Shown here piece after piece: positions 15,484 through 31,070 of a DNA stretch of 43,204 bases. Positions within the stretch are counted from its first letter, which is position 1. Every line of letters begins with the position of its first letter. The stretch is from a virus. The position numbers were made by a program, and so were the translations under genes. The notes beneath the pieces are model-generated. The model was not told the DNA's origin, ran no database searches, and was given only the letters and a program-made list of their open reading frames with translations. Location of the stretch: the IMG/VR virus record IMGVR_UViG_3300046003_001770, positions 1-43,204 of that record; one strand, 5' to 3'.

Positions 15484-15486
15484 CGC

Positions 15487-15975: not shown

Positions 15976-15977
15976 CT

Positions 15978-16241
15978 CTATTCCTCCGAAGAAACTAGCG
16001 GCAGGGCGATTAGCTTTCTTGATGCGTATGTTTTAACGCCTACCTGTATTACTGAGCCGTGTTGAGCAACGGAAGTACATTTCCCATCATCATTAAACAT
16101 ACCGTGACCAACAACCTCACATTCAGCCTCAACCGCTTTGAGCAGGGCGTGGGCGAAAGCCGGAACTTGCGGGTGATTACAGTTCGCCTCAATTGCCGCA
16201 CCAATAATCATTTTTTGAAACCGTTCTTTGCTAATTGTCAT
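15978..16241 (-). CDS. Hypothetical early protein
   Basis: 87 residues. N-terminal helix (KERFQKMIIGAAIEANCNHP), then beta-like C-terminus (GSVIQVGVKTYASRKLIALP). Overlaps the previous stop by ATGA. No family recognised. Confidence 0.55.
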   Translation of the reverse strand: MTISKERFQKMIIGAAIEANCNHPQVPAFAHALLKAVEAECEVVGHGMFNDDGKCTSVAQHGSVIQVGVKTYASRKLIALPLVSSEE

Positions 16242-16423
16242 TTCGTAACTCCCTCTGGTAGCGCATAGGTAATAATTGTTGATTCAAGAAAGTACATAGG
16301 CTCAAGCTCGTTCAGTAGAGCGAGATAGCCAGCACGAAATGTCTGATAGTCAAACTTATCTTGGCGAATGTCCTCTAGTTTTCTATGTGCAGCGAAAGCC
16401 TCACGAATCTTTTGCTCAGTCAT
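16238..16423 (-). CDS. Hypothetical early protein
   Basis: 61 residues; the pattern IREAFAAHRKLEDIRQDKFD with YQTFRAGYLALL is common in small proteins of leftward phage operons. Starts in an ATGA overlap with the 37-aa gene. Function unknown. Confidence 0.5.
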   Translation of the reverse strand: MTEQKIREAFAAHRKLEDIRQDKFDYQTFRAGYLALLNELEPMYFLESTIITYALPEGVTK

Positions 16424-16533
16424 TCGCTCACCCCATGCAACACTTGGAACATCCGAGCGATGCGATCAGCACCAACAGCCTTGAACGCTGCGAGTTCTGC
16501 CTCCGCAGCGGCGAGGCGTTCTGTTAAGTTCAT
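16420..16533 (-). CDS. 37-aa early peptide
   Basis: Starts ATG 16533 inside the previous stop (ATGA) and ends in the next start. Sequence is helical (NLTERLAAAEAELAAFKAVG). Retained because both ends fit the coupled operon exactly. Role unknown. Confidence 0.4.
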   Translation of the reverse strand: MNLTERLAAAEAELAAFKAVGADRIARMFQVLHGVSE

Positions 16534-17156
16534 GCAACCTCCCAAATAGTTAGCGGATTTCCCACCCCGCCTAGCCTGGTCTTTCCAGCCTTTTTAATCA
16601 GTCCATCCTTTTCCATCCGGTATAGCGTTGTGGTAACGCCGCCTACCGTTGTTTTGTTGGTCTTTGCAATCGACACCGATGTGTTTATTCCTGACGAAAT
16701 CATTTTTAAATAGCCAAGCCGAATATCTGCGTTCTTCTTCGATCGACGTGATGGGATGGCCTGTTTTGCATCGGCGCTAATCCTGCTTTTCAAATAATCA
16801 GGATCAATGTTCGCGTCGAAATATCTGGATTTGCTTTTCTTTGTGTCGTAACGATTTACTGTTCCTTCAGTCACTAGGTCATTCAGATATTCCCTGACGC
16901 AATTAACTGACCGATACATTTCAGCGGCGATCTCGCTGCAAGTTTCGCATCCGTCACATATAAGCTGATATATAGCCTTTTTCATAATGTCGGCTCTTGG
17001 CGGCACTGGCTCATTCAGTTTTTGCTGGTAAGCATGGTCTATTGTCACTGGCTTGATAAAGGCGTCTAGCTTTGGCCTGTCTAGCGAATGAATGCTTCTT
17101 GTACCAACTGGAGGGACAAACGCTTTAATTCCTAGCGTATAGACTAGCGTGTTCAT
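16530..17156 (-). CDS. Protein with two winged-helix-like DNA-binding domains
   Basis: 208 residues. One wHTH-like segment at about 60-105 (AIYQLICDGCETCSEIAAEM, then VNCVREYLNDLVTEGTVNRY). A second at about 145-208 (YLKMISSGINTSVSIAKTNK, then TTLYRMEKDGLIKKAG). The shape suggests a regulator or replication-accessory protein. It overlaps the next gene on both sides. No specific family is named. Confidence 0.5.
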   Translation of the reverse strand: MNTLVYTLGIKAFVPPVGTRSIHSLDRPKLDAFIKPVTIDHAYQQKLNEPVPPRADIMKKAIYQLICDGCETCSEIAAEMYRSVNCVREYLNDLVTEGTVNRYDTKKSKSRYFDANIDPDYLKSRISADAKQAIPSRRSKKNADIRLGYLKMISSGINTSVSIAKTNKTTVGGVTTTLYRMEKDGLIKKAGKTRLGGVGNPLTIWEVA

Positions 17157-17347
17157 GCTTCAACCTCATGGCTTGGCGCTGCTGTGCAGCATGGTTTCCC
17201 GTATCGCGTCATGACGTAATAACCATCATCCTGAATTGCTGAAATAACTAGGGCATCCCCGATTGCGAATGCCCCTTTTAAGATTACTGATTGCCCGACT
17301 TCGTGATGGCTAAGTCGTGGCGTTGGTGTGTGGCTATTTTTTTCCAT
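17153..17347 (-). CDS. Small beta-rich early protein
   Basis: 64 residues, with a strand pattern GQSVILKGAFAIGDALVISA and YYVMTRYGKPCC. Start overlaps the end of the previous gene by 14 bases. No family recognised. Confidence 0.5.
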   Translation of the reverse strand: MEKNSHTPTPRLSHHEVGQSVILKGAFAIGDALVISAIQDDGYYVMTRYGKPCCTAAPSHEVEA

Positions 17348-17537
17348 CTTTGATCCTTGAAATAGCGGCCTCTACGTAAATCGAAGCGTCCATCAATTCG
17401 AGCTGGAGATGGCGCAGCCAATCAATCAGCATCAGGTCATCGCGCTCTGTGGTAACGCCGTATTTCTTCAGTCCTACTTGGCTACGGGTTAGTAGGGCTT
17501 CGCGTACAGCTTCGACGTGTTTATCTTGGGATTTCAT
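17334..17537 (-). CDS. Small MazG-like/NTP-pyrophosphohydrolase-fold early protein (tentative)
   Basis: 67 residues. The pattern RSQVGLKKYGVTTERDDL followed by WLRHLQLELMDASIYVEAAI resembles small phage proteins with a MazG-like helix pair (acidic helix ELMDA). The full set of acidic metal ligands is not clear. Coupled to both neighbours. Confidence 0.45.
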   Translation of the reverse strand: MKSQDKHVEAVREALLTRSQVGLKKYGVTTERDDLMLIDWLRHLQLELMDASIYVEAAISRIKDGKK

Positions 17538-17700
17538 GCTGTTCCAGTGCGGATTTAATTAATTGCATCGTCGCTTCTAGCTCAATTATATGGATGATGT
17601 TGTCGCCATAAACAGATATATGCTTGCTGTTCATTTCGCGCAGTTCCTTGTTTTCAAGTTCAAGTCGAAGCATCTTCTGTTTCTCTTGCTTAGTCATCAT
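17521..17700 (-). CDS. 59-aa coiled-coil early protein
   Basis: Starts ATGATG at 17700, overlapping the previous stop; ends 17 bases inside the next gene. The first half is a charged coiled coil (QKMLRLELENKELREMN). It lies in the same frame phase and coupling style as its neighbours. Function unknown. Confidence 0.5.
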   Translation of the reverse strand: MMTKQEKQKMLRLELENKELREMNSKHISVYGDNIIHIIELEATMQLIKSALEQHEIPR

Positions 17701-17872
17701 TCACCTCAATAAAGCAATCTTCCTTCACGCACTTGTAAAGACTCACTGGCGGCAATTCGTCAAGCTTGAAGTCGGTGCGAATAGCCAAGTGCCTGGCGCA
17801 TGCGTATGACTTTTCGCAGAGCGTTCGGTCATCACGCCGGCCAAGGCAGCGGGTGGTTTTGTTGTCGATCAT
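17690..17872 (-). CDS. Cys-containing small early protein
   Basis: 60 residues with C-x8-C-x5-C and a late C-x4-C (TTRCLGRRDDRTLC, YKCVKEDCF), possibly a small metal-binding fold. ATG overlaps the methyltransferase stop. No family recognised. Confidence 0.5.
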   Translation of the reverse strand: MIDNKTTRCLGRRDDRTLCEKSYACARHLAIRTDFKLDELPPVSLYKCVKEDCFIEVNDD

Positions 17873-18792
17873 GCTGCGTCCATATCAAATAAAGTGCCGT
17901 GTGATTGCTTTGCACTGGTGATGTTTTTAACTGCCTGATTGAAGTAGGCTGTTTTCAATTCGCTGCCTACAAACTTGCGGCCTGCTTTGATTGCAACATA
18001 ACCAGTCGATCCAACACCGCTATACGGGTCAAAAATCACATCGCCAGGATTGCTCCATAACTGAACAGCACGTTCAATCAGATCAAGTGCCATTGGGCAT
18101 ACATGGCGTTCATCTTCTGCCTCTCGTGCTGCTTTGGCATTCAACGTATTGGAGAAATTAATATCCATCCATACGGGGCTTGCATATCGCCTCCATCGTT
18201 CATGGCTCAGTGTTCCGTGTGTCGGTTCATTCTCGCCAATGAAATATTCCAAGCCATTGTTATGCGCTACTGGCTCTGGGTTTTCTCCATCCTTGCGGAA
18301 GGCAAGAAGGTATTGCGGGATACCTGCGCGGCTTCTTGAGGAGTCTTTACAAAGCTGTTTGTGCATCAATCCTAGCGCCTTGGTGCGCGTTGCTTCGATC
18401 AGCGGGTCTTTCCATGCACAGTGTTCAGAGTGAAAGATAAAGCCAGCGCGTTTGAATGCTGCAATCACATCGCCCCGAAAGTCTTTCAGTCCGATATATC
18501 CGTCCCGTTCTTTCATGGCTGGAATATTCATCACATCAACGCAAACAATCCGGCCAGGCTTAGTTGCTCGTAATAGGCCAGCGATTAGAAAATCAAAATG
18601 CTCATAAAACTGATTGTCATTCGCTGAATTGCCCATGTCTCGGTCGCTGTTTGAGTATGTATAAAGCGATGCGTAAGGCGGCGAGAAAATGGAAAGGTGT
18701 AGCGAGTTTTCAGGAAGTGAATTAACCACTTCAATGCAATCCGCATTCCAGAGCGTCCAGTTGTCGCCGCTTGCTTGGTTCAATACTTTCAT
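17869..18792 (-). CDS. DNA methyltransferase, beta class (N4-cytosine or N6-adenine)
   Basis: 307 residues. Catalytic motif IV SPPY at 37-40 precedes the cofactor motif I DPYSGVGSTG at 255-264, the order of the beta class. The C-terminal FVGSELKTAYFNQA is typical of this family. SPPY favours N4-cytosine but does not prove it. The start overlaps the helicase stop by 4 bases, so the pair is co-translated. No restriction endonuclease is beside it, so protection from host restriction or regulation is more likely than a complete restriction system. Confidence 0.85.
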   Translation of the reverse strand: MKVLNQASGDNWTLWNADCIEVVNSLPENSLHLSIFSPPYASLYTYSNSDRDMGNSANDNQFYEHFDFLIAGLLRATKPGRIVCVDVMNIPAMKERDGYIGLKDFRGDVIAAFKRAGFIFHSEHCAWKDPLIEATRTKALGLMHKQLCKDSSRSRAGIPQYLLAFRKDGENPEPVAHNNGLEYFIGENEPTHGTLSHERWRRYASPVWMDINFSNTLNAKAAREAEDERHVCPMALDLIERAVQLWSNPGDVIFDPYSGVGSTGYVAIKAGRKFVGSELKTAYFNQAVKNITSAKQSHGTLFDMDAA

Positions 18793-20162
18793 GCTGCCAT
18801 CCTCAAAAAGTCAGGAATAGTCATCGCCACTTTTGGCTCGTATTCGGTTTTGTTTCGTACCGTTCCGCCGTGTAATGCAGCGGCGTTTAGGTCTTTCATG
18901 TGTTCGATCATGTTGTTGTAGGTTTCCTCCGCTTCGCGTTCTTTACGCTTGATATTGGAAACCACAGCGCCTTCTGTCTCAGCGGTTATTACATGAACAT
19001 TGACCGGCTTTGTTTGACCGAATCGCCAGCAACGGCGAATCGACTGGTATAGCTGTTCGTATGAGTCAGACAGTCCGACATAAGCCATGTCTGCACAGTG
19101 CTGAAAGTTAAGACCAAGGCCCATGATCTTTGGCTTGGAAACAATCACGCGAATCGAACCATCTAAAAAACCGGCTATTGCTTTCTCTTTGTGTTCGTCT
19201 GTGTCGCTGCCTTGAACTTCAACAGCGCCAGGTATCGCAGCGGCAAGTTGTTCAGATTCGTTATTTAAGTTGCACCAAACTAGGAATGGCTTGTCGCTGG
19301 CATTCACAATGTCGGCACATGCTCTGACTCGATCCTCTATCGAGTCGCGCCTTGCTTGCTGTCTCTCTTGAAGCGTTTGAGCTTCAACAGCGAATAGAAA
19401 CCCGCTAGACGGTGTATGCACTTTTACGCATTGCTCATGCATGTGAAGCGGTGGCAGTACAAAGCCATCATCGCTATAACCAAGGTCTGAAGGCTTGCGA
19501 ATCATTACTGCCCATGAAGCCATCCATGACCAGAATGCGGCCTGTGCATGGCCCTTAACTCGCCATTTAGAAGTATCTCCACCGTCATGCGTGAAATACA
19601 TCGCAAGCATTTCAGAGCGAGTCATTACGCCTAAAAACTCAGCCTGAGTACCTAGCTCCATGACATCATTAGGGGCTGGTGTGGCGCTACTGCACAAGCG
19701 GAAAGGCGTATTCTTAAACGCTTCGATCATCCATGTTGAGTAAGCGCCTGATGAGTTCTTTAGAATTGATGATTCATCCAAAGCAACCGCGCCGTATTGC
19801 TCAATATGGAAGTTTTCAAGCCGTTCATAGTTGATCACAGTGATGCGCTTTTTAACCTGCGATTGATCTTTAGCGTAAGACAGATCAATGCCGAACTTAT
19901 CAGCCTCACGGACAAACTGATGCGCTACTGCTAAAGGAGCAACAATCAAGGCTTCATGTGGTTGTCTGGTTGCCCACTCCATCTGCATTGGGCCTTTGCC
20001 TAATCCGCAATCAGCAAACAATGCAGCGCGGCCTCGTTTTAATGCCCACTTAACCATGTCCGACTGGTGAGAGTGAAGCATTGGATTCAGGTTAGGAACT
20101 TCGATTAAACCTGTTGGCGGGTCGATTGATTGCTTTCGCTTAATGAATTCCATGTAGTTCAT
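18789..20162 (-). CDS. SNF2-type (SF2) helicase
   Basis: 457 residues. Walker A region ADCGLGKGPMQ at about 50-60, Walker B/DExx as ALDESSILKNSS near 126, motif III CSSATPAPND, C-terminal helicase motifs SKPKIMGLGLNFQ and QSIRRCWRFGQTKP. The gene pair with a DNA methyltransferase is a recurring phage arrangement. Likely action is ATP-driven DNA translocation or remodelling. Starts by ATGA overlap with the previous gene. Confidence 0.85.
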   Translation of the reverse strand: MNYMEFIKRKQSIDPPTGLIEVPNLNPMLHSHQSDMVKWALKRGRAALFADCGLGKGPMQMEWATRQPHEALIVAPLAVAHQFVREADKFGIDLSYAKDQSQVKKRITVINYERLENFHIEQYGAVALDESSILKNSSGAYSTWMIEAFKNTPFRLCSSATPAPNDVMELGTQAEFLGVMTRSEMLAMYFTHDGGDTSKWRVKGHAQAAFWSWMASWAVMIRKPSDLGYSDDGFVLPPLHMHEQCVKVHTPSSGFLFAVEAQTLQERQQARRDSIEDRVRACADIVNASDKPFLVWCNLNNESEQLAAAIPGAVEVQGSDTDEHKEKAIAGFLDGSIRVIVSKPKIMGLGLNFQHCADMAYVGLSDSYEQLYQSIRRCWRFGQTKPVNVHVITAETEGAVVSNIKRKEREAEETYNNMIEHMKDLNAAALHGGTVRNKTEYEPKVAMTIPDFLRMAA

Positions 20163-20398
20163 TTGCTATTCAACTCCGTGAATCTTCGGTGGTTAAGCGG
20201 GGCGGGGTATGTTCCGCCGTTCATGTTGGTTAGCGTGTGCTGCATAGCTTCGTTGAGAATCAGATACTCCTGACTCAACAGGCCGAAGGCTGAACACATG
20301 CGCTCCATCTCTGTTTTGACCCGTTCCGTTTTGTTGGCTAGGTCTAAGAGAATCTGAGCCTGGACGCTGATGCTTGGGGCGTAGGGTTGTTCGGTCAT
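20159..20398 (-). CDS. Hypothetical helical early protein
   Basis: 79 residues; helical centre (ILLDLANKTERVKTEMERMC; LSQEYLILNEAMQHTLTNM). Overlaps both neighbours by 4 bases. No family recognised. Confidence 0.5.
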   Translation of the reverse strand: MTEQPYAPSISVQAQILLDLANKTERVKTEMERMCSAFGLLSQEYLILNEAMQHTLTNMNGGTYPAPLNHRRFTELNSK

Positions 20399-20736
20399 CG
20401 CGTAATTCCCGTAGCACTAAGGCCACAGAAAAATAATTCCTCGCCTATCCATAGCGGTGAATCACCTTTGGTTAGACACTTAGCTAAGATTCGGCGCAGT
20501 TCCTCAATCTCTCCCGCCTGCGCTGTAACCTTCGCAGCGACTCGGTTATCAGCTACTGCCTGACTAGAATTAGCCTCGGCTGACAAAAGATAGAGAACAC
20601 AAGCGCAGCACGTTAAAAAGGCCATCGCTCGGATGACCTTGTGTGCATGCCAGCGTAATCCTGACATTGACCAAGCTAGACGGTGTGGCAGGTTGTTTCG
20701 CTTGAGTTGGTGATAGTGAATGATTCGTCCGATCAT
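20395..20736 (-). CDS. Single-pass membrane early protein
   Basis: 113 residues from ATG 20736, which overlaps the previous stop. Basic N-terminus (RIIHYHQLKRNNLPHRLAW), one membrane segment (AMAFLTCCACVLYLLSAEA), then a coiled-coil-like tail (AKVTAQAGEIEELRRILAK). The topology is like an inner-membrane spanin, but it is in an early operon, so this is not claimed. Function unknown. Confidence 0.5.
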   Translation of the reverse strand: MIGRIIHYHQLKRNNLPHRLAWSMSGLRWHAHKVIRAMAFLTCCACVLYLLSAEANSSQAVADNRVAAKVTAQAGEIEELRRILAKCLTKGDSPLWIGEELFFCGLSATGITR

Positions 20737-20879
20737 AGGTACTCCACGCATGCAAGGAAAACCAATAAGATGATGATGTTGCAACCTGCGCCTACAATCA
20801 GACCGGCCAGCATGTCATCGTGTTCTTGTGCAATTTTCTCTAGCCGTTTTACTTCGGCTTGAAAGCTAATCGTCGTCAT
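20733..20879 (-). CDS. 48-aa tail-anchored membrane protein
   Basis: Start chosen at ATG 20879 because GGGAG precedes it and it overlaps the previous gene's stop. A charged helix (ISFQAEVKRLEKIAQEHDDM) is followed by a C-terminal membrane segment (IIILLVFLACVEYL). Function unknown. Confidence 0.5.
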   Translation of the reverse strand: MTTISFQAEVKRLEKIAQEHDDMLAGLIVGAGCNIIILLVFLACVEYL

Positions 20880-21042
20880 TTTCAACTCCCTCAGCATCGT
20901 ATGTTTCGTTGTATTTGGTATCTCGTATCTGCCACTCTGTAGCAGGCATTCGGATAAAGTCGCGGTCATGCCGGTTCTCAAGCATGATCTTTCCGGTACT
21001 CTTTTCGATTAGTTGGTATCGAACCAATTCGTCGTAGGCCAT
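20866..21042 (-). CDS. 58-aa early protein
   Basis: Start at the second of two ATG codons (21042), four bases after a strong GGAGG; the first ATG (21045) is too close. The sequence reads MAYDELVRYQLIEKSTGKIM onward and ends in an acidic tail. It is the first gene after the terminator at 21058-21084, so it is expressed only by read-through or from an unseen promoter. Confidence 0.55.
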   Translation of the reverse strand: MAYDELVRYQLIEKSTGKIMLENRHDRDFIRMPATEWQIRDTKYNETYDAEGVENDDD

Positions 21043-21057
21043 CATTCCTCCGGTCGC

Positions 21058-21084
21058 AAAAAAAGCCCATTGCTTGAATGGGCT
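21058..21084 (-). terminator. Strong intrinsic terminator
   Basis: On the minus strand: perfect 8-bp stem AGCCCATT/AATGGGCT (21077-21084 with 21064-21071), 5-base loop, then seven T. It ends the non-coding RNA region and stands between the recombination genes and the helicase/methyltransferase/integrase genes. Confidence 0.9.
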
Positions 21085-21376
21085 GGTTGTATGTCCCGCT
21101 TACGATACTGCGGGGATTGTGCCGCTCTGAACTACAGAGCCTTAGACTCAGCTAGACTGAATCTCAATCCGATCAAGCTGTGTTGATGGCGGGTGCTGAT
21201 CTCCCGCTTTCCGCATCGGCTTCACCTGCGGCCATAACCGTCGTTACTCAGCCGTAACATTCACCAACATCAAAGAGTCCTCCCGCCTAGATTCGAAAAA
21301 AATCACGCTCAAGAGATTTGCTAGGCAATAGGATGTTTAAAGTCTGAAACCACGACTGTCAGAGGACTCTTTATTG
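21085..21376 (-). ncRNA. Structured non-coding RNA / attenuator-like leader
   Basis: A 408-base gap (21085-21492) holds no long gene. On the minus strand it folds into a chain of perfect stems. The outer 11-bp stem is AAAGAGTCCTC/GAGGACTCTTT (21362-21372 with 21272-21282). Inside it are GCCTAG/CTAGGC (21285-21290 with 21321-21326), AAATC/GATTT (21300-21304 with 21315-21319) and a 4-bp AGTC/GACT. Then come GTTAC/GTAAC, CCGCA/TGCGG, GCGGG/CCCGC, GCTCTG/CAGAGC (21124-21140) and CCCGC/GCGGG (21095-21114), followed by the terminator. Another hairpin CCCTA/TAGGG lies at 21441-21455. No tRNA loop or known riboswitch consensus was recognised. Confidence 0.55.
21244..21270 (-). CDS. Possible 8-aa leader peptide
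   Basis: Minus strand GGGAGG (21279-21284) is 8 bases before ATG 21270, which reads MLVNVTAE and stops. Four bases of the ribosome site are inside the 11-bp outer stem, and the peptide's last codons form the GTTAC/GTAAC hairpin, so translation and folding would compete. Candidate only. Confidence 0.35.
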   Translation of the reverse strand: MLVNVTAE

Positions 21377-21492
21377 TTGAGACTGCTTACGTCCAGTCAG
21401 TCGGCCTCTTGGCTGATTCCATCAGGCTAATGTTTGACTCCCTACTGAGTAGGGCCAGAGGTAGAGACACCGATCAGCGCGGCTTATGACAA

Positions 21493-21816
21493 TCAGTAAT
21501 CTGCTCGTTTGGCAAAAGGGATGTCATCACCTAGCGGCGGTGCAGCTTGTGCGCTACGCTGTTGTGCTGGTTGGCTCATCGCTTTAACTGCTAGGCCAGT
21601 AACGTACTCGCCAAACTGCTTGTCCATGAACAGGTAATTAAACCAAGTGCCATCGTCCATTTTTGAGCTTGGGCCTGATACAAACTGACCATTTGAACAG
21701 CTGGCCAGCTTGCAGTTCTTAATCGCAAGTAGCACTTTGTCAGCCTTAACCAAGGCAATGCCGAATGTCTTACCTGACTTAGACGGCTCAATATTTACTT
21801 CTACGGGGAATTGCAT
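21493..21816 (-). CDS. Single-stranded DNA-binding protein-like
   Basis: 107 residues. An N-terminal beta-rich part (FPVEVNIEPSKSGKTFGIAL; WFNYLFMDKQFGEYVTG) and a disordered Gln/Ala/Pro-rich tail with the acidic DDIPF motif near the C-terminus, the hallmark of SSB tails. DDIPF is followed by six residues, unlike host SSB where it is terminal. Directly follows the annealing-protein gene, forming a recombination pair. Likely coats ssDNA during replication. Confidence 0.65.
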   Translation of the reverse strand: MQFPVEVNIEPSKSGKTFGIALVKADKVLLAIKNCKLASCSNGQFVSGPSSKMDDGTWFNYLFMDKQFGEYVTGLAVKAMSQPAQQRSAQAAPPLGDDIPFAKRADY

Positions 21817-22476
21817 TTATTGCTCCTTGTTTTCTGCTTTGAACTTCTTGATTGCGCTTCGTACCTTTGAATCGAGCAAAGACCATACTGCTATCTTTTC
21901 CTCGGCTTCTAGGTGTTTCTTTTCCAGCATATCGACCACTTCATTGATAGGCTTACCACTGTCAAAATGGACTTGGATACCTTCGGCAAACTCTTTGATA
22001 AATCGCTGTTCTTCAAGAGTGAATGACTCAAGAGCGCCAGCGGTAGGCGTTACGCCTTTGGCTGATGCTGCCTTTGCTAATGCTTCGGCTTCGCCTTCTG
22101 GAATATCCTCACCCGCATAGATGTAAAGCCCAAGACCATGCAGAGCGATAGCCTTTGCTAAGCAGCGTTGCATTGCGGTATTGACTGCGAATGCGTCTGG
22201 ATTGGCGATTGCTTGGTTGCGGTGGTTCATTACTGGAAGCTGTGAAGTCATCGCCTTACCAAAGGCTGTAACGGTGCAGAAAACCATCACCGTGTCATTC
22301 CATCGCATCGGATCTTTGTATTCCCATGTAGCCATTGGGTCAGCCTTTAGAAGCTCTGAAACCGCCCATGCCCACGATAGGTAAGAAAGGTTATTTTTCT
22401 TCTCTACATGGTCATTCACGTTAATTGCAGAAAGCCGCTGGAATGGCGACTCGGTTACTTCAATTCGCTTGTTCAT
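21817..22476 (-). CDS. Single-strand annealing protein, DUF1071 (Sak-type)
   Basis: 219 residues. Central LSYLSWAWAVSELLKADPMA, NDTVMVFCTVTAFGKAM and NTAMQRCLAKAIALHGLGLY are the DUF1071 signatures. This family belongs to the phage recombinases of the Rad52/Sak group. It is followed by an SSB-like protein, its usual partner. It would act in recombination-dependent replication and circularisation. No exonuclease partner is evident nearby. Confidence 0.8.
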   Translation of the reverse strand: MNKRIEVTESPFQRLSAINVNDHVEKKNNLSYLSWAWAVSELLKADPMATWEYKDPMRWNDTVMVFCTVTAFGKAMTSQLPVMNHRNQAIANPDAFAVNTAMQRCLAKAIALHGLGLYIYAGEDIPEGEAEALAKAASAKGVTPTAGALESFTLEEQRFIKEFAEGIQVHFDSGKPINEVVDMLEKKHLEAEEKIAVWSLLDSKVRSAIKKFKAENKEQ

Positions 22477-22664
22477 AGCCTGTTCTCCTTCAATTCTTTA
22501 CGTCTTAAATCTGCCTGCTCATACATTTGCTCGGCGTAGCCATCGCGCTTGTGTTCAGGTAGTTGCGATTGATGCCAGTGATATTCGTCATGCGCCGCCA
22601 TCATTTCTTCTTCAGAGCAGCGCATTTCATCGTCTGGTTCGTCTATCCAGCAATCGTTACTCAT
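22473..22664 (-). CDS. Acidic small early protein
   Basis: 63 residues, rich in Asp/Glu and His (WIDEPDDEMRCSEEEMMAAH; DEYHWHQSQLPEHKRDGY). Overlaps both neighbours by 4 bases. DNA-mimic-like charge could suit an inhibitor, but no such family is recognised. Confidence 0.5.
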   Translation of the reverse strand: MSNDCWIDEPDDEMRCSEEEMMAAHDEYHWHQSQLPEHKRDGYAEQMYEQADLRRKELKENRL

Positions 22665-22945
22665 GCTGCCTCCCGCATATCTTCAGCTTTACGCTCTTGT
22701 GCGTATTCGATCTCGCCATTCCAATCATCTACGCAGTAGGGGATGACCTCGGAATCAATGAAGTCATCGGTAAGATCAACCTCAGTGCCATTTACGCCAC
22801 CGAACTTGATCCAGCCAATCGTTGCAAATTCACCGCATCCAGGTTCAAACTGAGTCTGTTTGACTCCTTTGTGGTAGCGGTAGGAGATCGTTAATTCCTG
22901 TTCTCCTAGAACGCCGCAATCAACAAGCATTGTGCAGATAGTCAT
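22661..22945 (-). CDS. First gene of the leftward early operon, hypothetical
   Basis: 94 residues. GAGGAG precedes ATG 22945 by about 8 bases on the minus strand. The sequence is acidic and beta-like (GCGEFATIGWIKFGGVNGTE; VDLTDDFIDSEVIPYCVDDW). It is the first translated gene after the 525-nt leader. No family recognised. Confidence 0.55.
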   Translation of the reverse strand: MTICTMLVDCGVLGEQELTISYRYHKGVKQTQFEPGCGEFATIGWIKFGGVNGTEVDLTDDFIDSEVIPYCVDDWNGEIEYAQERKAEDMREAA

Positions 22946-22961
22946 TTCCGTATCTCCTCTG

Positions 22962-22973
22962 TGTAAAAGAGCG
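22962..22973 (-). promoter_or_regulatory. boxA-like element 2
   Basis: Minus strand CGCTCTTTTACA, one mismatch to CGCTCTTTAACA, 16 bases before the first start codon. Confidence 0.5.
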
Positions 22974-23370
22974 AACCAGACTCAACAGGGCTGTTCTATT
23001 CCCAATCTGATCCGCTGAAAAGTTAAGTACCGTTTTGCCGAAGGGCTGTTTTTCCCGCAGCACTCCTTGAGATGGTGAAACGGCACTACACAGGCGGCTA
23101 AAGGCTTCTCGTTGCGCGGGAAACTTCCTTTCGGTTAAGGTTAATAACCGCCTGCGTACTGCTGTCGTCACAATCAAAGAAGCTCAACGCTAAGCACGTC
23201 TGCCATTCCAGCGCCTTCCGAACTTCTTTGAATGTGTGGCCTCGTTAGAAGCCACTCACACCTACGTCTGATCGTCCTATTTGCGGGGAGCCTTCACGAC
23301 TTCGCCATCAGATCGGTGTTTGTTTATTACTTTGTGCTATCGGAATAAACCGATACACAGGATTCCTGTC

Positions 23371-23382
23371 TGTTAAAGAGCG
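23371..23382 (-). promoter_or_regulatory. boxA-like element 1 (nut-like site)
   Basis: Minus strand CGCTCTTTAACA matches the boxA consensus of rrn and lambdoid antitermination sites. It begins about 88 bases after the inferred start of the leftward transcript. A 13-base palindrome ACAGGATTCCTGT and the TATCGG/CCGATA hairpin follow immediately, in the place of boxB or put-type hairpins. Confidence 0.65.
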
Positions 23383-23476
23383 TCTTACTCAACTGCGGCT
23401 GACCGAATCGCTGTGCTGCTTGGCTATCTGTCCCGGCATTACCGGCTGCGGCTTCGTTGTTTTGTTGCGTTGATGA

Positions 23477-23505
23477 ATTATCAGACTTCCGATATTTGTT
23501 GTCAA
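23477..23505 (-). promoter_or_regulatory. Leftward early promoter (PL-like)
   Basis: Minus strand -35 TTGACA (23500-23505), 17-base spacer, -10 GATAAT (23477-23482). Start expected near 23470. GCTATATTT at 23514-23522, just upstream, is shared with the rightward promoter and is a likely operator half. Confidence 0.8.
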
Positions 23506-23531
23506 TAGGCATCGCTATATTTTTTTACGAA

Positions 23532-23548
23532 AGCACCTAGCGGGTGCT
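23532..23548 (-). terminator. Hairpin after repressor gene
   Basis: Stem AGCACC/GGTGCT with 5-base loop, 13 bases after the repressor stop on the minus strand; only TTTCG follows, so termination may be weak. It separates the repressor transcript from the leftward promoter. Confidence 0.45.
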
Positions 23549-23560
23549 ATCGAATCTCCT

Positions 23561-23887
23561 TTATTTCTGAGTGATTGCCATAGCCTTAGCTGCGGCTATA
23601 AGTGCGGCGCGTGAATTCTGATTAAGTTGATTGAACGTATCAATCAATGCTTCCTGGTCGCTAGTAGCGTCTTTTATGTTCTCAGGGCCAGTTCCATCTA
23701 ATAGATATTCTGGTGTTGTTTGCAAAACGGCTGCAATCCGCATTAGTTCATCTGCTCGGTGCTTTGTCGTAACGTTTCGCTCGTAGTCAGATATGGTCGC
23801 CTGCGATACTTTCGCAAGTGACGCAAGTTTTGCTTGTGTCAGCTTCATTTTTTTTCTTAGTTCCCTGATTCGTAATCCGAACGTCAT
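23561..23887 (-). CDS. Phage repressor (cI-like, HTH_3/Xre)
   Basis: 108 residues; ATG 23887 with GGAGG 10 bases upstream. HTH at about 6-60 (IRELRKKMKLTQAKLASLAK, VSQATISDYERNV, LQTTPEYLLDG). The C-terminus is a short helical tail (LIDTFNQLNQNSRAALIAAA). There is no LexA-type peptidase domain, so it is not cleaved by the usual RecA-stimulated route; induction must work otherwise. It lies divergent from cro, the normal switch arrangement, and its promoter overlaps a palindromic operator, so it probably controls itself. Confidence 0.85.
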   Translation of the reverse strand: MTFGLRIRELRKKMKLTQAKLASLAKVSQATISDYERNVTTKHRADELMRIAAVLQTTPEYLLDGTGPENIKDATSDQEALIDTFNQLNQNSRAALIAAAKAMAITQK

Positions 23888-23910
23888 TGTATCCGTACCT
23901 CCATAAATTA

Positions 23911-23939
23911 AGTATAGGCGCGGCTATATGGTGTTACAA
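23911..23939 (-). promoter_or_regulatory. Repressor promoter (PRM-like)
   Basis: Minus strand -35 TTGTAA (23934-23939), 17-base spacer, -10 TATACT (23911-23916). The expected start is near 23904, just before the GGAGG of the repressor gene. Confidence 0.7.
23913..23928. promoter_or_regulatory. Palindromic operator
   Basis: TATAGGCGCGGCTATA is a near-perfect 16-bp palindrome (one mismatched pair). It covers the repressor -10 and spacer. Related GCTATA half-sites occur at 23979 and 23514. Confidence 0.6.
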
Positions 23940-23957
23940 ATTTTAATAGGTATGGCT

Positions 23958-23986
23958 TTGCTTTTATTTATCGGAAGTGCTATATT
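23958..23986 (+). promoter_or_regulatory. Rightward early promoter (PR-like)
   Basis: -35 TTGCTT (23958-23963), 17-base spacer, -10 TATATT (23981-23986). The -10 is inside GCTATATTT (23979-23987), the shared operator half. Start near 23993, before cro. Confidence 0.75.
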
Positions 23987-24011
23987 TGCTCGGTATTGAA
24001 TAGAGGTGTTT

Positions 24012-24218
24012 ATGAATCCGAGACAGGTTGTAGATCACTTTGGAACGCAGACAGCAACAGCCGATGCGCTTGGTATTGCTCAGTCTAGCGTTGCTGGCTG
24101 GATTGATGCTGGTGAAGTTCCTGAGCCTCGCCAATACCAGATTGAATTGGCAACGGGTGGGATGCTTCGGGCTGATAAGCCAGCATTGAGAATTAACAAG
24201 GCGAAGTCTGCGGCCTAA
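24012..24218 (+). CDS. Cro-like repressor (YdaS-type HTH)
   Basis: 68 residues. ATG 24012 chosen because AGAGG is 5 bases upstream; a GTG two codons earlier falls in that ribosome site. HTH pattern DHFGTQTATADALGIAQSSV, then AGWIDAGEVPEPRQYQIELA, is typical of Cro/YdaS. First gene of the rightward transcript, opposite the repressor. Confidence 0.8.
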   Translation: MNPRQVVDHFGTQTATADALGIAQSSVAGWIDAGEVPEPRQYQIELATGGMLRADKPALRINKAKSAA

Positions 24219-24233
24219 ATAGCAGACAAAACA

Positions 24234-24272
24234 AAGCCAGCGTCAACGGTGCGCTAACACCTCGGCTGGCTT
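24234..24272 (+). promoter_or_regulatory. Intergenic hairpin after cro
   Basis: Perfect 8-bp stem AAGCCAGC/GCTGGCTT around a 23-base loop, no T-run. May slow or regulate transcription, or protect RNA ends. Confidence 0.35.
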
Positions 24273-24293
24273 CAAAGTAACGGAGTAATTGTA

Positions 24294-24572
24294 ATGCAAA
24301 ACCTATTAAACGCAAAAGAAAAGCTAATCCAGCTTGTTGATTGCAGCCTTGACGATGTTGTTAATTTAGTCGAAATACATGCAAAGCATTATCACGATGG
24401 ACACTTCACAGTTATGTCATTCACAACTGGCGTAAAAGCCATGTTTGGAACTGTCGATCTTGATACTGGATATGGTAGAGAAGCCGTAAACAATCTTCCA
24501 GCATATTCTGATACTCACATTGCTCTTTGCTACTTGCTTGCAAACGACGAAAACTATGTGGTCGGTGCATGA
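24294..24572 (+). CDS. Hypothetical early protein
   Basis: 92 residues; GGAG precedes ATG by about 9 bases. The sequence (LLNAKEKLIQLVDCSLDDVV; ALCYLLANDENYVVGA) shows no known motif. It stands where lambdoid phages carry cII but has no HTH. Overlaps the next gene. Confidence 0.55.
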   Translation: MQNLLNAKEKLIQLVDCSLDDVVNLVEIHAKHYHDGHFTVMSFTTGVKAMFGTVDLDTGYGREAVNNLPAYSDTHIALCYLLANDENYVVGA

Positions 24573-24997
24573 TGAGTAAATTAGATCATTTACGTAAGCA
24601 AGTGTGGGAAGTTGATTGCGGTGGAAGCTACAAACTAGCAATGCTTTACCTTGCCGAAAAAACAAGGGCCGGAGTTGCAAAGGTAAAAATCAAGGACATT
24701 GCTTCTGCATGCTGTGTATCAGAGCGCAGAGCGCAATACATTGTAGGAGAGTTGGTAAGTGATGGTTATGTGCATATCGTTGGAAACGAAAACGGTGGAT
24801 GCAGCAAGCCAAGAATTTACAAAATAACAAACAAAAAGGGTGAACAATTCAGCGCCCTTAAAGGGTGCAATAAAGTTCACCCGCTATATATATGTGTACA
24901 CAAAGAAGTTCGCCGTGATGGAAAACCGCCCAACCAAGGACTGATTTCTGCCAACGATGCGGAGATAAATAACCTTCTCTTGGCTAGGGGGCTTTGA
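24569..24997 (+). CDS. wHTH protein, possible replication initiator
   Basis: 142 residues from ATG 24569 (ATGATG, overlapping the stop before it; 24572 is also possible). A winged helix at about 25-70 (LAMLYLAEKTRAGVAKVKIK, CCVSERRAQYIVGELVSDGY). Two Cys pairs are present. Immediately upstream of helicase and primase genes, which suits an origin-binding or loader protein. The origin itself is not visible. Confidence 0.5.
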   Translation: MMSKLDHLRKQVWEVDCGGSYKLAMLYLAEKTRAGVAKVKIKDIASACCVSERRAQYIVGELVSDGYVHIVGNENGGCSKPRIYKITNKKGEQFSALKGCNKVHPLYICVHKEVRRDGKPPNQGLISANDAEINNLLLARGL

Positions 24998-26556
24998 TGA
25001 AACTTCGCCCATTCCAAGAGTCAGCTATTCAGCAATGCCGCGATGCTCTTTCATCGGGAAATAAGCGGATTGTGTTCTATGCGCCAACTGGTGCAGGAAA
25101 GTCGGTAATAGCCGAATCCCTAACCAAGCTATCCCTTGGTCGGGGAAAAAGGGTAGCGATTATTGCTAACCGTGTTCAGTTGGTTAAGCAGATGGCAGAT
25201 CGCTTTGCTGCTTCAGGTATCAGCTACGGGATTCTTCAAGGTGGAAACACAAACAACATTCACCTGCCAGTAGTCATCTGTTCGATTAACACGGTTGATA
25301 AGCGCGGTCTGCCTGATTGTGACGTAATCATCATTGACGAAGGCCATGCTTGCGCCGGTTCAAAGATGTACCGCGATTTGATCTTCCAGCGTAACAACGT
25401 ACCTGTAATAGCCCTAACAGCTACGCCATTCAGCAAAGGAATGGCTAAGCCTTACAAGGAACTAGAAAACGAGCCTTTGTTTCAGCACATGGTGATTGCC
25501 GAGACAATCAAAGGGCTGATCTCGCTAGGGTTCCTTGTTGATTGCGAAATCTACGCACCGTCTGAGCCTGATTTATCCGGCGTGAAGATGGTTAAAAACG
25601 CATTCGGTGAAAAAGACTATTCCGACATGAGCAAGGAATTAGCCGAGGCGGTAGATCAGCCTTCCTTGGTTGGGGATATTGTCCAGCACTGGCACAAATT
25701 GGCAGAAGGCAAGCCAACTATCTGCTTTGCTACTTCAATCACCCACAGCAAGCACATTGTTGAGCAGTTCAGAGCAACAGGCGTGACGGCAGAGCATATC
25801 GACTGCTACATGCATGAGGATGATAAAGAACGCATCACACGTGAATTCAAGGCCGGTAAATTCACTGTTCTATCAAACGTGGCGCTACTTGCTGAAGGGT
25901 TTGATTATCCGGCTTGCGAAGTAATGATTCTGGCCCGGCCTACACGCTCTTTGATTCGCTATATCCAGATGGTTGGTCGCATCCTTAGACCATTTCACGG
26001 TAAAGACCGTGGGCTATTGCTAGATCATTCTGGCTCAGTTCGTCATCTTGGATTTCCGACAGATGATCTCCCGCTTGAATTGGATGATGGAAGTGTCACC
26101 AGTAAGACCAAGAAAGAGATCGAAGAACCCAAGCCGAAGAAGTGCGCAAAGTGCCATTACCTTAAACCGCCAAAGATGGCGAAATGCCCAAAGTGCGGAT
26201 TTGAAGCTGTACGCACTGCCGAAGAAATCGATATTGAAGCAGGCGAGTTGGTAAAGCTGGAAAAGAAGCCAAAGCAAGACAAGAAATCGAAACAAGCAAC
26301 CTATTCAGAATGCTTGGGTATGGCCTCTATGCGCGGTAAGGATGTTCATTGGGCTGATGGCCTATACAAACACATTACAGGCGTTTGGCCGCGCTCTCTG
26401 TTGGTTATAGAGGCTATTCCATCTAACGAAACAATCGGTAAAGAGAAACAGCGCCGCATTGCTTACGCAAAACGGATGGAGAGCAATAAATCTCCTGCGC
26501 TAGAGCGTCTGGCCGCTTTGAAATCATTAGTCGGAGGCAATCATGCTGCCGGTTAG
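24997..26556 (+). CDS. DExH-box SF2 helicase with C-terminal zinc ribbon
   Basis: 519 residues from ATG 24997, five bases after AGGGG. Walker A APTGAGKS at 29-36, DEGH at 114-117, motif III ALTATPFSKGM, and motif VI region YIQMVGRILRPF. A CxxC pair set CAKCHYLKPPKMAKCPKCGF at about 380-400 is a zinc ribbon. Probably unwinds DNA at the fork with the primase encoded next. It is the usual phage replacement for a DnaB loader scheme in this class. Confidence 0.88.
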   Translation: MKLRPFQESAIQQCRDALSSGNKRIVFYAPTGAGKSVIAESLTKLSLGRGKRVAIIANRVQLVKQMADRFAASGISYGILQGGNTNNIHLPVVICSINTVDKRGLPDCDVIIIDEGHACAGSKMYRDLIFQRNNVPVIALTATPFSKGMAKPYKELENEPLFQHMVIAETIKGLISLGFLVDCEIYAPSEPDLSGVKMVKNAFGEKDYSDMSKELAEAVDQPSLVGDIVQHWHKLAEGKPTICFATSITHSKHIVEQFRATGVTAEHIDCYMHEDDKERITREFKAGKFTVLSNVALLAEGFDYPACEVMILARPTRSLIRYIQMVGRILRPFHGKDRGLLLDHSGSVRHLGFPTDDLPLELDDGSVTSKTKKEIEEPKPKKCAKCHYLKPPKMAKCPKCGFEAVRTAEEIDIEAGELVKLEKKPKQDKKSKQATYSECLGMASMRGKDVHWADGLYKHITGVWPRSLLVIEAIPSNETIGKEKQRRIAYAKRMESNKSPALERLAALKSLVGGNHAAG

Positions 26557-27472
26557 AGAAATTGCCCAAGGAAAATGGCCTGGAATACTCAAGGCTATTG
26601 GCATTGAAGAGAAGTATCTAAAAAACAAACACGGCCCATGCCCTGTGTGCGAAGGGCGGGACAGATTCCGCTTTGATGATAAACAGGGGTCAGGGTCTTT
26701 CTATTGTTCATCGTGCGGGGCAGGTGATGGTGTGCGCCTAGTGATGATTTTTAAGAATCTGGATTTTAAAAATGCAGCCATGGAGATAGAAGAAGCCGCA
26801 GGGTTCGTCAAATCATCACGATACGAAGAGAAAAAAACCGATGACTACCTGAAAGGACGGCTTAGAAAGCTGTTTTTAGGCTCTCAGCCGGTCACGCATG
26901 GCGATCCGGTCACTGAATACCTTGAAAAGCGGGGGATTCGACTGGCCTATATCCCGCCAAGCCTGCGCTATCACCCGGCGCTGACGTATTACCGCGACGG
27001 TGAGTCAGAGGTCGATGGTGCGTTTGACGCGATGCTGGCTGTTATCTCAGCACCAGATGGCAGTGGCGCAACGATTCACCGGACATGGTTACAGGGTGGT
27101 GATAAAGCGCCGGTATCAAGCCCACGGAAGATCGCACAGGGATTGCCGATTAAGGGCGGGGCAATTCGCCTGACACCTGTTGCAGAAACGCTTGGTATTG
27201 CTGAAGGCGTAGAGACAGCACTAGCCGCTAGTTTGTTATTTGGTGTTCCGACATGGGCATGTGTTTCAGCCGGTGGTGTTGAGTCTTTCATTCCACCTGT
27301 TGAGTGCAAGAGCTTGATTGTGTTTGGTGATAACGATGAGAACTTTACCGGACAGGCTGCTGCGTACAAGTTAGCCAATAGATTATCGCTGGCCGGGCTA
27401 AAGGTAGAGGTCAGATTGCCAAAAATAGCCGGTACAGATTGGGCTGATGCTATCGGAGGTTCAAATGCCTAA
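26543..27472 (+). CDS. DNA primase (zinc-binding plus Toprim, P4 alpha-like)
   Basis: 309 residues, overlapping the helicase gene by 14 bases. Zinc motif CPVCEGRDRF and FYCSSCGAGDG at about 33-63. Toprim domain with acidic motifs IAEGVETALAA and IVFGDNDEN. The end TDWADAIGG matches P4-type primases. There is no helicase domain in this protein; that function is in the gene upstream. Confidence 0.85.
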   Translation: MLPVREIAQGKWPGILKAIGIEEKYLKNKHGPCPVCEGRDRFRFDDKQGSGSFYCSSCGAGDGVRLVMIFKNLDFKNAAMEIEEAAGFVKSSRYEEKKTDDYLKGRLRKLFLGSQPVTHGDPVTEYLEKRGIRLAYIPPSLRYHPALTYYRDGESEVDGAFDAMLAVISAPDGSGATIHRTWLQGGDKAPVSSPRKIAQGLPIKGGAIRLTPVAETLGIAEGVETALAASLLFGVPTWACVSAGGVESFIPPVECKSLIVFGDNDENFTGQAAAYKLANRLSLAGLKVEVRLPKIAGTDWADAIGGSNA

Positions 27473-27665
27473 CCAAACAATAACGAGTGTATTCGCAGAA
27501 ATAGAACGGCAGCGGGTTGTCATGGAGGCAAAACACTGTGTTGAGTTCTACAACATCACAGAGCGCCGCGAGTATTTGGAATCTGTGCAGAAGTGGCGCG
27601 GTGAAGTAGGTCGCAAGTGCATGGAAAAAGCCATCATCCAAGAATGGGAGTCACGCAAGAAATGA
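27465..27665 (+). CDS. Hypothetical early protein
   Basis: 66 residues from ATG 27465 after GGAGG. Charged helix (ITSVFAEIERQRVVMEAKHC; YLESVQKWRGEVGRKCMEKA). Overlaps the primase end and the next start. No family recognised. Confidence 0.55.
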   Translation: MPNQTITSVFAEIERQRVVMEAKHCVEFYNITERREYLESVQKWRGEVGRKCMEKAIIQEWESRKK

Positions 27666-27991
27666 CCGAAGAAATCGACATTTTCAAAGTCTTGGATTTC
27701 ATGCGCGATAACTCTCACGCATATGCCAAGGCCAAAGCAGAGCGCCAATACCTCGAAAACTATCGTAAGACGGTCAAGGCTCAACAAATGAAGCTACACC
27801 TAAGCCTACCCATTAGCGCGCAGGAGCGAGAGGCATACGCAAGCGATGCAATGATTGAGACAGACAAGGCAATTCAGATCGCCACAGAGGAAGAAGCCAA
27901 GCTCTATTGGTTGCTTTCGTCAGCACAAGTTAAGGCTGATGTGTGGCGCTCACTGTCTGCTAGTCAGCGCATGGAGGTTAAGAACCTGTGA
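27662..27991 (+). CDS. Hypothetical helical protein
   Basis: 109 residues from ATG 27662 (ATGA overlap). Long charged helices (AKAKAERQYLENYRKTVKAQ; IQIATEEEAKLYWLLSSAQV). This resembles small phage proteins that accompany recombination genes; no motif identified. Confidence 0.5.
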   Translation: MTEEIDIFKVLDFMRDNSHAYAKAKAERQYLENYRKTVKAQQMKLHLSLPISAQEREAYASDAMIETDKAIQIATEEEAKLYWLLSSAQVKADVWRSLSASQRMEVKNL

Positions 27992-28248
27992 GCAAGCGAG
28001 ATCACATTGGGCGAGTAAAGGAACTTCCTTGCTCTGTATGCGGTGCATCTGGCCCATCAGACGCGCATCATATTCTTGCAGGTAGAACACCTGGCAGAAA
28101 GTCGCCTGATTTCCTAGTCATCCCGCTATGCAAAGACTGCCACCAAGGAAGCCACAACGGTATTCACGGACAGCGCCGCATGTGGGACGTGATGAAGAAG
28201 TCTGAGCAGGATTGTTTAGCTGACACGATAGAAAGGCTCTTTTACTGA
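27988..28248 (+). CDS. HNH-type zinc nuclease-like (DUF968/Ref-like)
   Basis: 86 residues, GTG start with GGAGG 10 bases upstream. Motifs CSVCGASGPSDAHHIL and PLCKDCHQGSH give two CxxC pairs and HH, the pattern of Ref/DUF968 HNH proteins in phage NinB-RusA regions. It would cut or process recombination intermediates. Next to RusA, as expected. Confidence 0.7.
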   Translation: MSKRDHIGRVKELPCSVCGASGPSDAHHILAGRTPGRKSPDFLVIPLCKDCHQGSHNGIHGQRRMWDVMKKSEQDCLADTIERLFY

Positions 28249-28604
28249 TGATCTCTTTTGAATTCCCATATCCACCTAGCGTTAATCACTACTGGGGTCA
28301 GTGCGGAAAGCGCAAGTACATCACAAAACGCGGCATTGACTTCAGGTCAAGCATATCTGGATTAGTTGCAGATAAGGCGCAGGAAACAATCACGCATGAG
28401 ATTGAAGCGTTTGTAACGCTATACCCGCCAGATAAACGCAGGCGCGATTTAGATAATCCAATGAAGGCATTACTTGATGCCATGCAAGAGGCAGGCGTCT
28501 ATGACGATGACTGCCAGATCAAAAAACTAACCATTGAAATGCGTAATCCGATTAAAGGCGGCAAGTGCTGCGTTGTAATCGTTAAGGGGGAAACCAATGG
28601 CTGA
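28248..28604 (+). CDS. rusA: Holliday junction resolvase RusA
   Basis: 118 residues. N-terminal FPYPPSVNHYW and the acidic active-site block RRDLDNPMKALLDAMQEAGV followed by DDDCQI are RusA hallmarks. Starts on the last base of the previous stop. Resolves branched DNA before packaging. Confidence 0.92.
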   Translation: MISFEFPYPPSVNHYWGQCGKRKYITKRGIDFRSSISGLVADKAQETITHEIEAFVTLYPPDKRRRDLDNPMKALLDAMQEAGVYDDDCQIKKLTIEMRNPIKGGKCCVVIVKGETNG

Positions 28605-28812
28605 CGAATGCGATATCGCACAGCACCAGGTTGATATGTTCCTAACAGCATCGCTCCTGAAGCACCAGCAACGATTGAACCAAGTAGGCGACATAGAAGC
28701 CGAGACATGCAACGGATGCAGCTACGCAACTAAATCCTCATGGGGTAGGAGATGTGATGGGTGGCGTGATTGCCGGGAAGATTTAGATCGTGGATCGAAA
28801 GGGAGAGCATGA
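28597..28812 (+). CDS. TraR/DksA-like small zinc-finger protein (atypical)
   Basis: 71 residues. An N-terminal helix (ADECDIAQHQVDMFLTASLL) leads to TCNGCSYATKSSWGRRCDGW and CREDLDR, the layout of TraR-type C4 fingers that bind in the RNA polymerase channel. Cys spacing differs from the standard finger. May modify host transcription. Overlaps RusA and the next gene. Confidence 0.55.
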   Translation: MADECDIAQHQVDMFLTASLLKHQQRLNQVGDIEAETCNGCSYATKSSWGRRCDGWRDCREDLDRGSKGRA

Positions 28813-29060
28813 GCCTAACAAAGAAGATCGTTCAATCAACCAGATTCAATCAAACCGTAGCCGACATAGTTCGAGCCACAGGCGCAAAGCCAAATACGGT
28901 CAGAGTCGTTCTAAGACGCGCTGCGGTCAAAGGAGTAATCCACATAGACAGGTTCTATCGTGGGAAGTCTGCAAGGACGATAAAAGTCATTAGTCACGAT
29001 GAAGGAATAGAGGCTAGGTTAAACGGATTGATTTGTGGATTATGTGGGAGTGCGAAATGA
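28809..29060 (+). CDS. HTH DNA-binding protein
   Basis: 83 residues from ATG 28809 (ATGA overlap, GGGAGAG upstream). wHTH pattern TRFNQTVADIVRATGAKPNT, VRVVLRRAAVKGVIHIDRFY. Positioned just before the packaging genes, so it could be a late-gene regulator; inference from position only. Confidence 0.5.
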   Translation: MSLTKKIVQSTRFNQTVADIVRATGAKPNTVRVVLRRAAVKGVIHIDRFYRGKSARTIKVISHDEGIEARLNGLICGLCGSAK

Positions 29061-29440
29061 GTGATAAGAATCCAGTGGGTAGGCCAAGAAAGATTAAATC
29101 ACCGGAAGAATTTGATTCTTTGGTGGATTCATATCTTGCTATGTGCCGAGCTAATGAAGAACCGATTCTGCTAACTGGAATGATCCTTGCGCTAGGGTTG
29201 TGCAGCAAAGAAGCGTTCTATTTGTACGAAACATATCCAGAATTTCTTGACTCTGTAAAAAGGGCGAGAATGCTGGTCGAATCAGAATACGAGAAACGCC
29301 TGAATGTTAATAGTTCGGCAGCAGGGCCGATCTTTGCACTGAAAAACTTCGGATGGAAAGATAAGGTTGAGCAGGAGATGTACGGGAAAGATGGTGGGCC
29401 GGTTCAGGTTCAGCCTGTATTGCAGATTGTTACGTCTTGA
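29057..29440 (+). CDS. terS: Terminase small subunit
   Basis: 127 residues from ATG 29057, overlapping the previous stop. GRPRKIKSPEEFDSLVDSYL, then TGMILALGLCSKEAFYLYET and FALKNFGWKDK are the pattern of P22 gp3-type small terminases. It selects the packaging site. A headful mechanism, consistent with a circular assembly, is likely but not shown. Confidence 0.82.
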   Translation: MSDKNPVGRPRKIKSPEEFDSLVDSYLAMCRANEEPILLTGMILALGLCSKEAFYLYETYPEFLDSVKRARMLVESEYEKRLNVNSSAAGPIFALKNFGWKDKVEQEMYGKDGGPVQVQPVLQIVTS

Positions 29441-29442
29441 AC

Positions 29443-29583
29443 ATGAAAATGTTTTTCATGTACTTATTTGGTCATAAATGCCATTTACAGAGAGAGCGGA
29501 TTACTTTCGCTGGAATGGTCGGTTTGTCATGGAGGTGTTCAAAATGCGGAAAGTTTTATCACGTTTTAGGTGGTAAGCGTTAA
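29443..29583 (+). CDS. 46-aa Cys/His protein (DUF1660-like)
   Basis: Starts at ATG 29443 and ends in TAATG shared with the large terminase start. Contains FGHKCHLQ and WRCSKCGKFYHVLGG, a single zinc-knuckle-like pattern as in DUF1660 prophage proteins. A perfect 9-bp hairpin ACATGAAAA/TTTTCATGT covers its start codon, so its expression may be controlled by folding. Confidence 0.5.
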   Translation: MKMFFMYLFGHKCHLQRERITFAGMVGLSWRCSKCGKFYHVLGGKR

Positions 29584-31031: not shown

Positions 31032-31032
31032 G

Positions 31033-31064: not shown

Positions 31065-31070
31065 TGGCGC

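Follow-up and report, generated by a model that had tools for sequence, protein, structure and literature searches.

A candidate rrn-type boxA antitermination leader in a phage early operon

The window analysed here is a 43,204-nucleotide stretch of viral DNA (positions 1 to 43,204 of IMG/VR record IMGVR_UViG_3300046003_001770) from a phage with integrase and repressor-type genes. A leftward early operon lies on its minus strand, as do all features described below unless noted. The operon begins at the promoter that the first-pass annotation had read, TTGACA-17-GATAAT (23505-23477), which matches the consensus at 11 of 12 positions and is the best of five promoter-like sites within 13100-25000; since 15.7 such sites would be expected there by chance, their number is by itself no evidence. 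The promoter is followed by an untranslated leader of 525 nt (about 23470 to 22946). An open reading frame at 23327-23512 has its start upstream of the transcript and no PHROG match, and the leader contains no plausible gene until 22945. The first gene of the operon (22661-22945) encodes a 94-aa protein that has no PHROG or Pfam match, no relative in IMG/VR, and only three R/K among its first 35 residues, in agreement with the initial statement that no Arg-rich N-like gene is convincing. It is followed by genes for an acidic 63-aa protein (22473-22664), a Sak-like single-strand annealing protein (21817-22476; phrog_8492, phrog_659), and a 107-aa protein whose only match, to SpoVG, is sub-threshold (21493-21816). 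A genome scan found 15 distant relatives of the Sak-like protein in other phyla, and the repressor has five distant relatives; a boxA near the Sak-like gene is not conserved in that gene's relatives.

Past these genes the operon contains a second noncoding folded stretch (21056-21492; ~440 nt, z -2.78), which includes a long helix with arms at 21362-21379 and 21265-21282. It ends in an intrinsic terminator inside the operon (21084-21058), made of a hairpin at 21084-21064 and a T run to 21058, where a terminator had been noted at the outset. Further along the same strand, a helicase and methyltransferase pair (17869-20162) is 78-90% identical to pairs in the otherwise different phage records L161-L166. 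At the record's two ends, the proteins encoded at 72-1037 and 41115-42176 on the plus strand have an N-terminal stretch, GDALSGVMAAYDAAKGDYPSAAMNALGVLPFVS, in common and differ at their C-termini, as if they were a virion protein with exchangeable domains.

An exact copy of the rrn-type boxA (CGCTCTTTAACA; consensus YGCTCTTTAACA) is located early in the transcript at 23382-23371. This site, boxA1, lies 94 nt past the -10 hexamer, or at about +88, the position first assigned to it, and is the sole exact copy in the window, where 0.008 copies would be expected by chance on both strands under a dinucleotide model. The second boxA that had been placed at the end of the 525-nt leader is also present: boxA2 (CGCTCTTTTACA, 22973-22962) carries one mismatch and stands one base ahead of AGAGGAGA. 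Sites with at most one mismatch number two in the window against 0.27 expected, and both fall within the one leader, where 0.0016 are expected. When two mismatches are allowed there is no excess, with four sites found against 4.4 expected. A search for two boxA sites at the window's spacing matched one 118-kb record, in which each boxA has its own promoter, and this is a different layout from that of the window. In that phage record (L214, G063; 118,537 bases), two exact boxA sites each lie ~17-27 nt behind the -10 of a TTGACA promoter, and the pair is present near both record ends.

From boxA1 to the first start codon, the leader RNA runs untranslated and folded for 437 nt. The predicted fold of the leader, at -178.7 kcal/mol, has a z-score of -3.87, and none of 100 shuffles folded as well. 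The two hairpins that had been reported after boxA1 both exist directly 3' of it in sequence and predicted folds (23369-23357 and 23355-23338), but they are small among larger ones. These larger elements are a predicted hairpin ACACCGATCTGA...TCAGACGTAGGTGT (23258-23319), a hairpin GUGGCUUC-UAAC-GAGGCCAC (23236-23255), and two long helices, CACAUUCAAAGAAG...CUUCUUUGAUUGUG (23169-23236), which would resemble an RNase III substrate, and GCAGGCGGUUA...UAGCCGCCUGU (23090-23155), which encloses the motif CGAAAGGAAG. The terminal leader hairpin (22954-23022) holds boxA2 and also the Shine-Dalgarno of the first gene, which is evident in the sequence at 22953-22960; its GAGGAG pairs with CUUUUC, and its unpaired value in the leader fold is 0.28. 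Neither the leader nor the second noncoding stretch (21492-21056) has a match above the gathering score in Rfam.

By DNA similarity the leader stands alone in the collections searched. A blastn query with 22600-24100 returned no match among 50,697 phage records, no leader relative was found by blastn or nhmmer among the loci collected, and comparison with 41 records gave chance-level pieces only. A probe of 16 bases around boxA1 gave 13 hits in IMG/VR, each judged unrelated. Relatives of the capsid were found at 45 IMG/VR loci, whose early regions, where read, differ from the window's. Among 38 records (the window and 37 capsid relatives), a relaxed promoter-boxA pattern matched only the window and one relative, G003; a reversed-pattern control and a shorter promoter-boxA spacing each matched none of the 38. 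G003 is 90% identical to the window in capsid and 88% in terminase, the nearest in both among records that include an early region, and its early genes differ from the window's. Two records with still nearer capsids (G001 and G002, 97-98%) are both fragments and have no pattern match.

The promoter of G003 is identical to the early promoter of the window in both hexamers and in spacing, and the 5' leaders of the two are similar (1 of 1000 shuffles scored as high). The boxA core of G003, CGCTCTTTA, lies 121 nt from the -10 and 334 nt ahead of the first gene; the site matches boxA in its core only (CGCTCTTTAGCC, two mismatches). G003 also has the UAAC-loop hairpin and its closing UUC/GAG, on a stem that differs yet still pairs, and the L213 leader likewise has the same loop on a changed stem. 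Behind this hairpin in an intergenic stretch of G003, CGAAAGGAAG recurs with its flanks inside an intercistronic hairpin, a match that none of 500 shuffles equalled; 5 of 500 shuffles did as well against three G003 noncoding stretches together, and 231 of 500 against the G003 leader alone. These modules are thus common to both phages, lying in the leader of the window and between genes in G003. The comparison with relatives that the first-pass annotation had proposed thus finds the promoter, the boxA core, and the hairpin motifs kept in G003, and the promoter-boxA module absent from the other 36 of 37 capsid relatives, many of which are fragments.

A wider set of leaders was collected from IMG/VR with the full pattern TTGACA-16/18-NATANT-60/90-CGCTCTTTAACA, which matched 21 stretches, ~19 of them distinct, against a chance expectation of ~0.3 (arithmetic from the 13 matches of the 16-base boxA1 probe). 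In these stretches boxA and the first likely start codon are about 220 to 690 nt apart. In L200, L202, and L209 the -10 is followed by TCATYCAACGCA at the same place as TCAT-CAACGCA, the first transcribed stretch of the window (23455-23476); this stretch was no part of the search pattern, is in register in all of these, and is less exact in G003. In a free local alignment of the window with L200 alone, 62 of 1000 shuffles scored as high, which is not significant. Folding was compared in 18 leaders, comprising 16 of the 21 pattern stretches, the window, and G003, with first starts chosen by eye; left out were L193 and L198, which nearly duplicate L206 and L205, L201, which lacks a clear first gene, and L207 and L208, which lie at contig ends. 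A z-score of -2 or below was obtained for 15 of the 18, the exceptions being L199, L211, and L213, and the mean was -3.29 for leaders versus -0.72 for equal stretches past the first start codon (Wilcoxon p 0.0008). The hairpins differ from leader to leader, and boxA is the recurrent element. One hairpin, with its loop around GUAGUCAGUC or a short form of it, is common to five leaders; all six pairs hold in all five, and three of the six change on both sides, a modest test given five related sequences. The leaders of L196, L197, L204, L210, and L212 share hairpins AAACCGYCGCU-stem-AGAARC and GUAGUCAGUC, with compensatory stem changes.

None of the 10 first genes searched, out of 16, matched an N family. 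The first genes of L204 and L212 are basic, with nine and eight R/K in 35 residues, which leaves room for an unrecognised N in these two. A small protein of CxxCG...KSNYM type (~65-75 aa) recurs among the first genes (L194, L197, L206, L210, L212, and L213), and its L206 copy has no match in annotated phages. Two candidate traits of the class were dropped. A second boxA is absent from the 21 other leaders, some of which end early; G003 was outside that scan. Concealment of the first Shine-Dalgarno in all leaders was also rejected, as unpaired values were 0.59 for first genes and 0.51 for later genes (p 0.07), and the window and L209 are the only leaders for which it may hold. When leaders were compared with annotated phages, 54-56% of the L205 leader aligned at ~88% with nine Bordetella avium phages (IFTN1-9), and four other leaders had no match. 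The Rfam family Burkholderiales-2 matches L205 at 2538-2612 on the minus strand, the complement of the boxA leader, and occurs in the Bordetella phages IFTN1-9. The family may be a known RNA motif whose orientation was assigned backwards.

Among isolated phages whose early regions were read directly, the exact 12-mer is present in the early leaders of T7 (413-424, L220), T3 (780-791, L223), gh-1 (727-738, L224), KN3-1, and IFTN4. A one-mismatch form, TGCTCTTTAACA, is found in K1F and KP32, and SP6 has three one-mismatch sites, at 655, 925, and 1535 (L226), in successive leaders; the early region of phiKMV has no boxA. T7, KN3-1, and IFTN4 were known beforehand or found through boxA and are a biased sample, whereas T3, gh-1, K1F, SP6, KP32, and phiKMV were picked by name with the outcome not foreknown, and five of these six were positive. 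In IFTN4, 479 nt separate the exact boxA from the gene that follows on the same strand; the operon includes genes for an HNH protein, an antirepressor, and exonuclease VIII. In T3 and gh-1 an annotated RNase III site comes after boxA. To our knowledge, no N is known in T7-type phages. In the open literature we found no paper on boxA in T7-group early leaders, a search in which subscription journals were mostly outside and older T7 notes may exist, nor one on rrn-type boxA in phage early leaders that lack N.

The sequence elements, the fold, the recurrence, and the form of boxA are read directly from the DNA, and they make it probable, in our judgment, that this is an rrn-type antitermination leader served by host Nus factors with no phage N protein. 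The rrn form of boxA is a tight binding site for NusB-S10, and lambda's weaker boxA is helped by N; this, together with the lack of a recognisable N gene, favours antitermination by host factors only. Host sigma-70 polymerase would initiate at 23505-23477, and NusB-S10 would bind boxA1 as it emerges in the transcript. Acting with NusA and NusG, and probably also with SuhB, NusB-S10 would make the elongating polymerase resistant to Rho, allowing it to cross the ~440 nt of untranslated, hairpin-rich leader, the similar noncoding region at 21492-21056, and the remainder of the leftward operon. The long helices would most likely serve RNase III processing or RNA stability, in line with the RNase III sites annotated after boxA in T3 and gh-1. 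Because rrn complexes confer resistance mainly to Rho, the mechanism leaves read-through of the intrinsic terminator at 21058 unexplained, and that terminator is weak evidence for it.

The first-pass label of a nut-like leader is right in the broad sense that a boxA lies in an early leader. Taken in the strict lambda sense, boxA1 and one of the adjacent hairpins, as boxB, would form a nut site for an unrecognised N-type protein. Two small hairpins do adjoin boxA1, as boxB follows boxA in lambda, and a terminator lies downstream, as the tL terminator does in lambda. We regard this reading as unlikely, since boxA is of the rrn form and not lambda's, the hairpins after boxA1 lack the lambda boxB loop, no Arg-rich N gene is adjacent, the genes past the leader lack both an Arg-rich character and any match to N, and in other phages the module precedes unrelated first genes. 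The window's small proteins of no known family could nonetheless include an N of a new kind. The initial annotation had left the mechanism as either RNA-based, as at the put sites of HK022, or dependent on Nus factors as in rrn leaders. If put-like, the folded leader RNA would itself bind RNA polymerase and confer terminator resistance, with boxA incidental, and the strong fold, the downstream intrinsic terminator, and the lack of an apparent N gene would all suit such a role. Against this, the leader has no similarity to any annotated phage, and the recurrent element is boxA while hairpins vary between leaders. No blastn match to put was found in the phage collection, although short structured sites could escape blastn, and HK022 22000-32000, a stretch that may not hold the put sites fully, contains no boxA of either form. 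As the 12-mer has the rrn and not the lambda form and recurs behind strong sigma-70 promoters in many phage leaders, among them those of T7-type phages, the Nus-factor alternative is the better supported of the two; put RNA gained no support and seems very unlikely.

It is also quite unlikely, in our estimate, that the leader is mainly a noncoding RNA acting in trans, an ornate phage RNA whose synthesis boxA only secures. Its 525 nt, its strong fold, and a second such stretch at 21492-21056 would be in keeping with that role, but no large RNA in Rfam is matched, the hairpins form modules that change from phage to phage, and in G003 the same motifs stand between genes. The most mundane account, that the boxA1 12-mer arose by chance in a mere untranslated region, could draw on G003 keeping the boxA core only and on the other capsid relatives having no boxA; with 0.008 exact copies expected and the arrangement recurring in many phages, it is hardly credible. 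A further proposal is compatible with the rrn-type reading and concerns boxA2, which with the terminal hairpin might form a suhB-like translational switch in which NusB-S10 hides the first Shine-Dalgarno. In suhB, boxA is reported to lie 6 nt from the Shine-Dalgarno, and Nus factors to repress translation (PMC5725501). The adjacency of boxA2 to the Shine-Dalgarno and the pairing of the latter in the predicted fold speak for such a switch, while the mismatch in boxA2, its absence from the other leaders, and the finding that first Shine-Dalgarno pairing is no class trait speak against it, and we consider translational control by boxA2 possible but doubtful.

Taken together, the layout common to the T7 group and other phages suggests that these phages may borrow host machinery instead of a lambda-style N. 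With confidence a little short of even, we propose that many phages, from T7-like to temperate, run their early operons by the host rRNA antitermination complex alone, using an rrn-type boxA, a long modular folded leader, Rho resistance, and no N; such leaders would be an undescribed class of phage regulatory RNA, of which Burkholderiales-2 would be one misoriented fragment. Antitermination by boxA in phages is taught via lambda N. If an N-independent rrn-type version acts in the early leaders of T7, T3, and many uncultivated and temperate phages, early phage transcription would commonly depend directly on NusB, S10, and SuhB, and the escape of untranslated, hairpin-rich early RNAs from Rho would be explained.

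Several known systems share parts of this arrangement. Lambda nutL/nutR with N also place a boxA in a leftward early operon leader with a terminator downstream; the lambda boxA forms, CGCTCTTACACA and CGCTCTTAAAAA, differ from the rrn form at two positions, and in the window no N was found and the leader is much longer. The E. coli suhB 5' UTR has a boxA beside the Shine-Dalgarno, as boxA2 is in the window, but boxA2 has one mismatch and closer spacing and precedes a phage gene. Rfam RF02917 (Burkholderiales-2 RNA) matches just after boxA in the L205 leader, but the family has the opposite orientation, and the window contains no match to it. A boxA ahead of CRISPR arrays similarly guards an untranslated transcript, in that case with no phage operon, and in Legionella a boxA in front of the array is reported to give ~10-fold more array RNA (PMC7862264). 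The rrn operon leader, with its NusB/S10/NusA/NusG/SuhB complex, agrees with the window in the letters of boxA and in the location of the site in a long untranslated structured RNA; it differs in that the window leader drives a phage mRNA with no rRNA following, and boxB and boxC were not identified in the window. The T7-group leaders (T7, T3, gh-1, K1F, SP6, and KP32) have the same order of parts as the window, namely a sigma-70 promoter, an rrn-type boxA, hairpins, and the first early gene. These phages are lytic, unlike the window phage with its integrase and repressor-type genes, the T7 leader has ~100 nt after boxA compared to 437 nt in the window, and the blastn search of the 50,697 phage records with 22600-24100 gave no match to T7-group leaders at the DNA level. 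The element is best classified as an rrn-type boxA leader of a phage early operon that has the T7-group order of parts and no DNA similarity to that group.
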